64,000 bases of DNA from Alphaproteobacteria bacterium MarineAlpha12_Bin1 (GTDB lineage: Bacteria > Pseudomonadota > Alphaproteobacteria > UBA6615). Under the pieces are notes generated by a model that was not told the DNA's origin, did not search any database, and worked only from the letters and a program-made list of their open reading frames with translations. The translations under genes were made by a program, and so were the position numbers. Shown piece by piece: positions 39,727 through 42,522 of this stretch; positions within the stretch are counted from its first letter, which is position 1, and each line of letters begins with the position of its first letter. The stretch is from positions 1 to 64,000 of the forward strand of contig PTJY01000005.1 in NCBI GenBank assembly GCA_002937505.1, given 5' to 3'.

Positions 39727-40125
39727 TTAAATACCTCCGATTAAATAATAACCGACTATCCAAATTACGAATGTCAGAACTACTGAAACTATAAGCGTCA
39801 ACCATCCAGTTTTATAAGCCTTGCTTATATCCAGTCCCCAGCCAGCATCCCAACACAGATGTCTAATGCCATTGGCTAAATGAAAGGTGAAAGAGAAAGT
39901 CCATGCAAAAAGAAAAAGTCTTCCGACAATAGAACTAATAAACCAATGAAAGTCGTTATAGTATTGAGGCCCTAAAGCGATTGAAAAGAGCCACCAAACT
40001 AGAATTAAGGTCCCAACAGCTAAACCAATTCCAGTCAAACGATGCATAATAGAGAGCACCGAAGTTAACTGCGGTTTATAAATTTGTAAGTGTGGTGATA
40101 AAGGTCGATTTTCGGTTCTCATCAA
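39727..40125 (-). CDS. sdhC: Succinate dehydrogenase cytochrome b556 subunit
   Basis: RPLSPHLQIYKPQLTSVLSIMHRLTGIGL; HLANGIRHLCWDAG. Confidence 0.95.
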   Translation of the reverse strand: MMRTENRPLSPHLQIYKPQLTSVLSIMHRLTGIGLAVGTLILVWWLFSIALGPQYYNDFHWFISSIVGRLFLFAWTFSFTFHLANGIRHLCWDAGWGLDISKAYKTGWLTLIVSVVLTFVIWIVGYYLIGGI

Positions 40126-40366: not shown

Positions 40367-40416
40367 CTGTGGAAAACCTGTGGAGGAACTGTGTCTATGT
40401 TTAATAATTATACACA
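40367..40416. promoter_or_regulatory. DnaA-box-like sites upstream of ncRNA candidate and sdhC
   Basis: TTATACACA on + (40408-40416), plus TTTTCCACA on - (within ctgtggaaaa) and a further CCTGTGGA. Confidence 0.35.
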
Positions 40417-40444: not shown

Positions 40445-41464
40445 GTTGCCGACTGGGGGTTAAAAGGTGAAACATAGTATCTGCACGCACGAGCGTGACG
40501 GCAGACATTGCGCCGTCCCAAGGAAAGGCCGTTTGCGGTCTTTATTTGGGTAGCTAAGTGGACCTAGGGGGGAAACTGAAGCGAAGGAGTAGCGTCATCT
40601 GCGACTTGTCGAGTAGTTGTTCTTGAACAATGAAATTACGGGGAGTAGGTCAAGTCGGTGAACGGTTTTGCTTTTCGGAGCCCCTTTCCTCAGAGGGATC
40701 GTTTGCGCCGGGTCGTTGGGCGCAGCAGGGTGGGCAACCGCTTATGTGGACGTAGGCGATCTTCAGTACCCCTTGTCTAGGGTGTGGATTAGATCTGGCT
40801 GCCTTGGTCTTCGGATAGAGGCGCTGATGTAGGTTACAAGCTAGACATAAGTGGGATTCATCGCCCAACTTCGGGCGGGAGATGGAAACCGCGCTGGGAA
40901 TACTGTAAACGGGAGGTAGGTCACTACGTTGGCATTTCTTCCTTGCGACCTTGTCTAAGGACTTGGGTCGTATCAGCTGATGAGGCTTATGCCAAATTGG
41001 TTGACGTAAGGGTTTGTTTTACTGCCTCGGTGGATAAAGCGAGCTCTAGAGGGGGCGATGGCGTTAGGTTCCAGGGCACTCGCCGGCCGGGAATTTTAGC
41101 GTAGCCAGAAATAAGGCAGGAATCTTTATAGGTTCTGGCTGGTTAAGAAGGCAGAAGTAGTTGGCGTCCTCCTGTGGGCGCGTGTTTTGTGAGGGTAGCT
41201 ATGTGGAAGGTGTAAAAACTAGAAGTATGGCACCGTCGGGAACTAAAAGTGACGTGTCGGCCAGGGGTATGTCACTTTGGACCAGGCGGATCTGAGCGAG
41301 ACAGTTTGTGGGTGCAGTGGTTTGATCTCATTAAGAGTTTTGGCTCTTGTGTGGCTAAGCCAGATGTCCAAAAACTAAAGGGAGTTATCTCTTTATTTTA
41401 CGGACCTAGGAAGCGTCAGGCGTTACGGGCTCCGCGTCCATGCACCTGGCGCTTTCTTTTTTTT
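40445..41464 (+). ncRNA. Candidate large (~1 kb) structured non-coding RNA, class not recognised
   Basis: Long non-coding, GC-elevated block with many perfect helices: GACGGC/GCCGTC 40497-40517; CCCAA..AAAGGCCG/CGGTCTTT..TTGGG 40517-40550; TTGTT-CTTG-AACAA 40617-40630; TGCGCC/GGCGCA 40704-40724; TTCG-capped hairpin 40802-40821; CATC/GATG + GCCC/GGGC 40859-40884; TTGGCAT/ATGCCAA 40929-40995; GGCGA/TCGCC 41054-41084; AGCCAGAA/TTCTGGCT 41103-41140; AAAGTGAC/GTCACTTT 41246-41278; ends in a Rho-independent terminator. 5' end approximate. Confidence 0.75.
41411..41464 (+). terminator. Rho-independent terminator of the ncRNA candidate
   Basis: AAGCGTCAGG/CCTGGCGCTT stem (one GU) followed by TTTCTTTTTTTT. 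Confidence 0.85.
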
Positions 41465-41883
41465 GGATTTGTTAAAAATAATTAGTAACAGAGGACTTAA
41501 CTACCAGAAAGAGGCCCGACGGTGAGATCGGACCCCTTTGTTTGGCGTTAAATTTAGCTCCGCATCCAGGCTCGTACAATAAACCTCTTATCAATCGGGA
41601 ATCGCGTCGGTCAAACAAAATATTTTTTTATTTACTCTATGGTATGGTTTAGTTGGTAAAATTTTAAAAAAAATCTGTCTAGTTTAATTATTTTTTCTCA
41701 CTAGTAATTATGTTTCTTTGTTTCTTGTTTAAGTAAATATAGATGAGGTTTTTCGAGATCGGATAGTAATATCATCAAATCGCAAGATGTTATTTTATAT
41801 TTGGTTATAATCTGTTATTACGTAATTGGATCCTAAAGAAAATACTTTACCAACTTAATATTAACCGCAGATTAATTTCTGAT

Positions 41884-42522
41884 TTGACAGACTATATAAT
41901 TATAAATGGTTTTATTTTCGGGTTAGTGCTCGCAGCACCGGTTGGACCCGTAGGAGTTCTGTGCGTTCAGAGAACGCTCTCAGAAGGGCGCCTGCATGGG
42001 ATACTGTCTGGACTGGGAGCAGCCGTTGGTGACGCAATTTATGGAGCTATTGCAGCATTCGGAATTAGTGCGATTCAATTATGGATTGTTGATCATCAAG
42101 TAGCGCTGAGAACGGCTGGAGGAATAATTTTACTTTTATTGGCGGCTAAAACGTTGATTGTGACAACTCGGCGATCTTCGGAGTCACGAGTGGGTGAGGT
42201 TCATACTGAGAGCTTATTGCAGGACTTTATTTCAACTTTTCTACTGGCAATAACTAATCCTATAACTATGTTAACTTTTGCGGGGTTATTTGTCACTTTG
42301 GGGGTGACCGATGCTGGAGAATCAATTGGGAATGCTTCTCTGTTAGTTGCAGGTGTATTTATAGGGTCCGCTATGTGGTGGTTTGCTCTTTCTTTTTCAG
42401 CAAATCTTGCTAGGCCTTACCTGGATGGGGGCTACCAAAAATGGGTATCACGTGTATCTGCGGCTATTTTGGTTGGTTTTGGAGTTTATGCGCTAACCAC
42501 GGCTCATTTTTACCAGATTTAA
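41884..42522 (+). CDS. LysE/RhtB-family translocator
   Basis: GFIFGLVLAAPVGPVGVLCVQRTLSEGRLHGILSGLGAAVGDAIYG. Confidence 0.88.
   Translation: MTDYIIINGFIFGLVLAAPVGPVGVLCVQRTLSEGRLHGILSGLGAAVGDAIYGAIAAFGISAIQLWIVDHQVALRTAGGIILLLLAAKTLIVTTRRSSESRVGEVHTESLLQDFISTFLLAITNPITMLTFAGLFVTLGVTDAGESIGNASLLVAGVFIGSAMWWFALSFSANLARPYLDGGYQKWVSRVSAAILVGFGVYALTTAHFYQI

Follow-up and report, generated by a model that had tools for sequence, protein, structure and literature searches.

What occupies the gap between the divergently oriented genes sdhC and LysE in this alphaproteobacterial genome? The window analysed here (64,000 nucleotides) belongs to a 2.34-Mb genome, on its 276-kb contig C8; the interval in question is flanked by sdhC, starting at 40125 on the minus strand, and by a LysE-family gene at 41884 on the plus strand, with no credible open reading frame in the 40445–41464 stretch between them. 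The initial annotation proposed a structured non-coding RNA of about 1 kb on the plus strand, a proposal backed by covariation, strand asymmetry, the pattern of indels and the conservation of both ends. As judged from sequence, with no transcript data to hand, the locus is a previously uncatalogued, folded RNA gene of about 1,000 letters on the plus strand. Of the boundaries first given, the end at 41464 stands and the start probably does not: 40445 seems too early, 40446–40451 resembling a −35 box, and the RNA probably begins near 40484. We thus place the RNA itself at 40484–41464 (plus strand, ~980 nt), its start inferred and its end set by a terminator.

That terminator is the most conserved element of the class, a 3′-terminal hairpin followed by U8 (AGGAAGCGUCAGG..CGGGCUCCGCGUCCAUGCA..CCUGGCGCUUUCU; 41408–41464, plus strand). 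Its near-invariant 13-bp outer stem lies within 41408–41457 and eight T follow (41457–41464), in agreement with the canonical intrinsic terminator originally read here; it ends ~420 bp 5′ of LysE. Between the two, another GC-rich hairpin, bordered by A/T runs, is present at 41505–41545, and several relatives have a similar terminator-like hairpin 3′ of the RNA. Other genera have an extra ORF of ~300 residues between RNA and LysE (L036–L046), which the window's genus lacks (41465–41884).

Could the interval encode protein after all? Open frames in the window copy do not, even at their longest, exceed those of shuffled sequence, and of 40 indels that separate close relatives 39 have a length of 1 modulo 3, in keeping with the earlier statement that no credible ORF is present; on frame lengths and indel pattern we rejected a protein-coding reading. 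The minus strand of GC-rich relatives contains some long open frames, which might be taken to indicate a degenerate protein gene or an artefact of composition. To this we give virtually no credence: frames do not exceed shuffles in most other copies either, the indels are of the wrong kind, and the covariation described below refutes it.

Searching the window region against Rfam 15, permissively to E ≤ 5, gave no significant match inside the RNA, nor did 39 homologous loci (7 family homologues, 12 diverged and 20 from other families) return a match inside it; membership was defined as a match to a family covariance model at its gathering score. The classes without a match include OLE, GOLLD, ROOL, HEARO, RNase P, tmRNA, group I/II introns, 6S and riboswitches, and the view that no known Rfam class is represented therefore survives. 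RNase P RNA and alphaproteobacterial tmRNA, housekeeping structured RNAs of 300–400 nt, are encoded elsewhere than the window RNA: both genes sit at other positions in 7/7 genomes tested, and replacement of either was rejected for that reason. One genome (G001) has two equally scoring tmRNA genes (C9:14912–15240 and C12:201905–202233), perhaps an assembly duplicate. The open-access literature yielded no paper describing an RNA of this kind (subscription journals were outside the scope). The novelty claimed is of an RNA class that has no homologue among catalogued families; as a loose kind, large ornate RNAs have precedents.

The evidence for structure is comparative. By itself, the window copy folds to −381.8 kcal/mol, against −344 ± 6.9 kcal/mol for dinucleotide shuffles (z = −5.5). 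The body of an 18-sequence alignment gives an RNAalifold consensus of −130 kcal/mol and 135 pairs, of which 68 show compensatory change in at least one sequence. Our null, 23 tree-simulated alignments in which every column changed as often as in the real one and which were refolded one by one, reached −38 to −58 kcal/mol and 3 to 14 compensated pairs, and the covariation sought among homologues is thus found. The reverse complement of the real alignment folds to only −45 kcal/mol, marking the plus strand as the functional one, in agreement with the original strand assignment. An all-pairs covariation test on the 18 sequences (453,628 tests; lowest E ~1) had no power and was replaced by the refolding null, and for that reason we claim significance for no individual pair. 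In other families (4–6 sequences each), f60 and f66 exceeded the refolding null in energy only and f23, also a small set, was about equal to it; these small-set tests therefore do not show body covariation outside family f1. The bodies are packed with cUUCGg tetraloops (111 occurrences of CUUCGG against 9.7 expected). At this level of inference, a large structured plus-strand RNA without an Rfam match is supported.

The fold of the near clade is multi-domain, comprising a closing helix, several long arms, two near-invariant core motifs, two 3′ hairpins and the terminator hairpin, with GNRA and UUCG loops in an ornate whole. Two forms are available to its 5′ end. A conserved hairpin, CACGC-ACGA-GCGTG (40483–40501, plus strand; class form GCACGCG-NAA-GCGUCGAAG), lies near the inferred start, and the alternative is a possible long-range closing helix (40483–40494/41304–41315, plus strand), in which 5/7 pairs of 40488–40494/41304–41310 carry compensatory change (18 sequences). 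This helix competes with local pairing at 40484–40497, and the local hairpin is the form conserved across families. Downstream, the hairpin AAAGGCCG-TTTG-CGGTCTTT (40524–40543, plus strand) covaries in the family. Family alignment and consensus fold define a core helix with a near-invariant apical motif, CCAGGGCACUCGCCGGCC(G/A)GG (41061–41102, plus strand), and a core hairpin, CGUGUC-GGCCAGG-GGUAUG (41253–41272, plus strand; family form ACGUAUCGGCCAGGGGUGCGU), has an invariant loop on a stem that varies through G-U steps. A variable 3′-domain hairpin (41318–41362, plus strand) covaries in the near clade and is missing from genus g6. The helices first listed are all present in the window but are unequal in conservation. 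Conservation of the AGCCAGAA/TTCTGGCT stem goes no further than the window and its nearest relative, the AAAGTGAC/GTCACTTT and TTGGCAT/ATGCCAA stems are kept partly, in the near clade, while the AAAGGCCG/CGGTCTTT arm is kept family-wide.

Within the window's order (one family in this genome collection), blastn detects the element in 18 of 24 genomes, at one locus each, and the RNA or a traceable relative is present in 23/24, almost always divergent from sdhC. Synteny, compared wherever the contig was long enough, is constant, the RNA being flanked by divergent sdhCDAB and, at its other side, by LysE, a methyltransferase, metW and metX. Four further genomes carry a diverged copy at the same place: G003, G004, G012 (~1.3 kb, with added UUCG hairpins) and G020 (truncated by the contig end). 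The G012 version of the locus (L135:2236–3577, ~1.34 kb) has additional TTCGGG hairpins in a row ahead of its terminal hairpin. In G009 a relocated copy retains the upstream array described below, the CGTATCGGCCAGGGGTGCGT motif and the core hairpin equivalent to 41253–41272; the two sdh loci of this genome both lack an adjacent RNA. The relocated copy (L137, minus strand, ~2660–1500) has no visible 3′ hairpin of the usual kind after the CGTATCGGCCAGGGGTGCGT motif, a GAGACCAATTTT-type repeat lying there in its place. The sole genome of the 24 without any trace of the RNA is G006, 79% complete and without an sdh match. Searched for exactly across 85,462 species genomes, the window-type 3′ motif occurs on 16 contigs, each from a MAG deposited as Alphaproteobacteria, Rhodospirillaceae or Proteobacteria.

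How far does the RNA extend beyond the order? A covariance model of the 3′ hairpin (R1) gave weak matches in other families, and inspection indicated that these are real, by a shared outer stem, inner element and upstream boxes. From the inspected matches we built models R2 and R3 (E-values for all three models are rough), modelling long 3′-end types apart from short ones, as a mixed MAFFT alignment misplaced the insert; inspection by eye extended to families other than f80 and f149. R2 finds 28/387 class genomes and R3 40/387, the latter in 17 alphaproteobacterial families. The other 347 of the 387 alphaproteobacterial genomes sampled have no model match, and the RNA is therefore not universal. 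A second, wider sample gave 8 matches, all in the same class (f1 and f23), among the same-class genomes listed. The label 'lineage-specific' in the initial annotation is hence wrong, the RNA being widespread in the class, and its divergence from the sdh operon, true within the window's order, does not extend to other families. The class-wide hairpin pairs GAGGCGUCAGG with CCUGACGCCUC in its outer stem and encloses an inner element, GGAC-CCGC-GUCC. Across families the outer stem is paired in 100% of cells, with 4/11 pairs compensated; slid controls of the whole 3′ structure are only 35–56% paired. Second or further matches to the hairpin occur within single genomes (G207, G327, G333, G030 and G392), possible paralogues. 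No match was found in the viral contigs or phage records searched, and plasmids gave only a 22-bp match at chance level; on these collections, and with a syntenic single copy in the order, a phage or mobile-element RNA was rejected.

Most inspected homologues combine a rigid upstream array, a UUCG-rich body of varying length and the same terminator-like hairpin, many adding the start hairpin. Body length runs from ~0.4 to ~1.3 kb, a roughly threefold variation between families; with array, 5′ hairpin and 3′ hairpin all conserved, it is thus the ends of the transcription unit that are held and the middle that changes in length. In one f8 genome (G030, L104:880–1585) hairpins capped by CCUUCGGG recur many times through the body in nearly the same form, with stretches of GGAAGC and GGGGA, which suggests growth by tandem duplication. 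Short RNAs of f23 (~400 nt; L202–L207, L189 and L106) have the class 3′ hairpin and only one upstream box (TCCACAAGAAAT), and are possibly a reduced branch of the class. The RNA is usually single copy, and its gene neighbours are unrelated between families. These neighbours bear on whether the transcript acts in cis, as a long regulatory leader or an attenuator, on the gene downstream of it (in the window, the LysE-family gene). RNA and downstream gene do share an orientation in the order, yet the strong terminator ~420 bp before LysE and the further ORF that intervenes in other genera speak against it; since neighbours differ between families, the RNA is not the leader of one gene, and we consider this account very improbable.

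The upstream array, absent from the initial annotation, is conserved and lies at 40368–40416 (plus strand); on consensus alone, it is a candidate DnaA-binding control element. Direct boxes stand at an 11-bp pitch (TGTGGAAAA at 40368, TGTGGAGGA at 40379 and TGTGTCTAT at 40390), followed by an inverted box of DnaA-box consensus, TTATACACA, at 40408–40416. In its generic layout, three TGTGGATAA-type boxes at 0/11/22 precede an inverted TTATNCACA at +40, and this spacing recurs at RNA loci of f1, f2, f8, f17, f60, f68, f88, f113, f114, f129 and f155, with scores mostly 23–30 of 32 against ≤22 in controls (other strand, downstream DNA and shuffles). The array is partial in f66 and f125, and f23 and f65 lack a full one, having the last box or parts only. 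At other-family loci found through the 3′ hairpin, upstream TTATCCACA boxes are present. The RNA array is the best match in the 276-kb window contig (27 against 23 for the next) and in 400 kb of G019 (27 against 19), and a simpler pattern of it is found in precisely those 18 genomes in which blastn detects the RNA, a single time in each. The 5′ hairpin follows 64–67 bp past the array end in f1 (several), f2, f17, f88, f114, f125, f129 and f155, more weakly in f60, f68 and f113, with up to 18/18 matches against 8.6–10 in shuffles. A putative promoter (40446–40476, plus strand) is inferred in between from a −35-like TTGCCG (40446–40451) and a −10-like AACATA (40471–40476). The family alignment shows hardly any variation in the TTGC and (A)ACAT columns, and other families have a TTG, resembling a −35 box, at the same distance from the array; a sigma-70 consensus search called no match at 40446–40476. 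One mark of a DnaA-regulated promoter, TTATNCACA DnaA boxes close to the promoter, is present in the sequence.

Boxes of the TTATNCACA type are most obviously read by DnaA, and the constant spacing of the array next to a promoter suggests, from consensus, DnaA control of transcript initiation; the array could also serve another factor with a similar site. Boxes of DnaA consensus and a local GC-skew sign change in the window might instead point to the chromosomal replication origin or its relic. GC skew led us to reject oriC: there is no skew minimum in the 276-kb contig, skew in G019 holds one sign for ~200 kb on each side, and in the complete genome G177 nearly every point sampled to either side has negative skew, making an origin extremely unlikely. 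Clusters of DnaA boxes also exist outside origins. The datA and DARS loci of E. coli are intergenic clusters of this kind without a conserved structured RNA; the window locus is similar as a box cluster outside the origin and differs in the covarying RNA that follows the array. Might function nevertheless reside in the DNA array, acting as datA or DARS do to titrate or reactivate DnaA, with the RNA secondary or serving to keep the locus transcribed? A rigid DnaA-consensus cluster, essentially one per genome, would fit. We find this doubtful, as the body shows strong compensatory change and strand asymmetry and no sequence of the locus is better conserved than the 3′ hairpin; a by-product would not have been kept in this way, and the RNA is unlikely to be one.

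Because start, end and DnaA-type sites are shared across many families, the RNA probably has a conserved role, regulatory or as a scaffold, in connection with chromosome replication. The best explanation of the whole, to which we give an even chance, is an independent, trans-acting non-coding RNA of a new large-RNA class, for which DnaA control and a scaffold or sponge role are inferred. DnaA would bind the array and set transcription, a step predicted from consensus without binding or transcript data, and RNA level would then be expected to follow replication initiation or the ATP/ADP state of DnaA. On weaker inference, the RNA may be a protein-binding scaffold or sponge with its contacts at the 3′ hairpin and the invariant GGCCAGG loops, and may feed back on replication or cell-cycle control. 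Conserved ends around a variable UUCG-rich middle suggest, provisionally, that the RNA acts as a scaffold, a sponge or an RNP through a few contact points and not by way of a fixed catalytic core. The ribozyme or scaffold role raised at the outset remains a guess, and nothing here shows catalysis.

Large ornate RNAs such as OLE, GOLLD and ROOL form RNA-only complexes (PMC12286853). The window RNA resembles them in size class, dense covarying structure, lack of coding capacity and un- or poorly known function, and satisfies the description of that kind (extensive covarying structure over hundreds of nucleotides, non-coding). It differs in having no covariance-model match, a mostly single-copy chromosomal location and no phage association seen, and its class is set apart by the DnaA-type promoter array, the shared terminator hairpin and its residence in Alphaproteobacteria. 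Size, the ornate multi-domain fold, GNRA and UUCG loops and the long-range closing helix would all suit an RNA machine of this type, self-assembling or catalytic and independent of DnaA, the array only setting growth-phase expression. We hold this possible and on balance unlikely, given the absence of homology to the Rfam models of those classes and a body whose length varies ~3-fold between families, unlike a fixed catalytic core.

Returning to an RNA under DnaA control, two alphaproteobacterial precedents bear comparison. CcnA of Caulobacter crescentus, like the window RNA, is an alphaproteobacterial ncRNA linked to DnaA boxes and the cell cycle; it is encoded within the replication origin, its activator is presumed to be CtrA, and it base-pairs with ctrA and gcrA mRNAs (PMC8959179). 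The window RNA is not at the origin (no GC-skew switch, G019/G177), and its own promoter has the DnaA-type array. EcpR1 of Sinorhizobium meliloti, also an alphaproteobacterial RNA acting on the cell cycle, targets dnaA and gcrA mRNAs and is a 101-nt Rhizobiales RNA of two stem-loops, 3′ of divK-pleD (PMC4414408); the window RNA differs in size (~980 nt), fold (many helices) and location (divergent from sdhC). Alphaproteobacterial RNAs can thus act on the cell cycle, and neither of these is a relative by published size, location or fold.

A bolder proposal, held tentatively and at somewhat less than even confidence, is that this new RNA class of at least 17 families is switched by DnaA through a rigid four-box array outside the origin, linking replication initiation to cell physiology as a conserved RNA arm of the cell-cycle circuit. 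On that proposal the class was overlooked because its body diverges fast and only the two ends are conserved. Very few known bacterial RNAs are as large and as densely structured. A covariance model for annotation can be had directly from the two conserved ends, and the class is open to study in any cultivable carrier family. A class-wide RNA with a DnaA-consensus array would be a concrete, testable RNA component of alphaproteobacterial replication or cell-cycle control.
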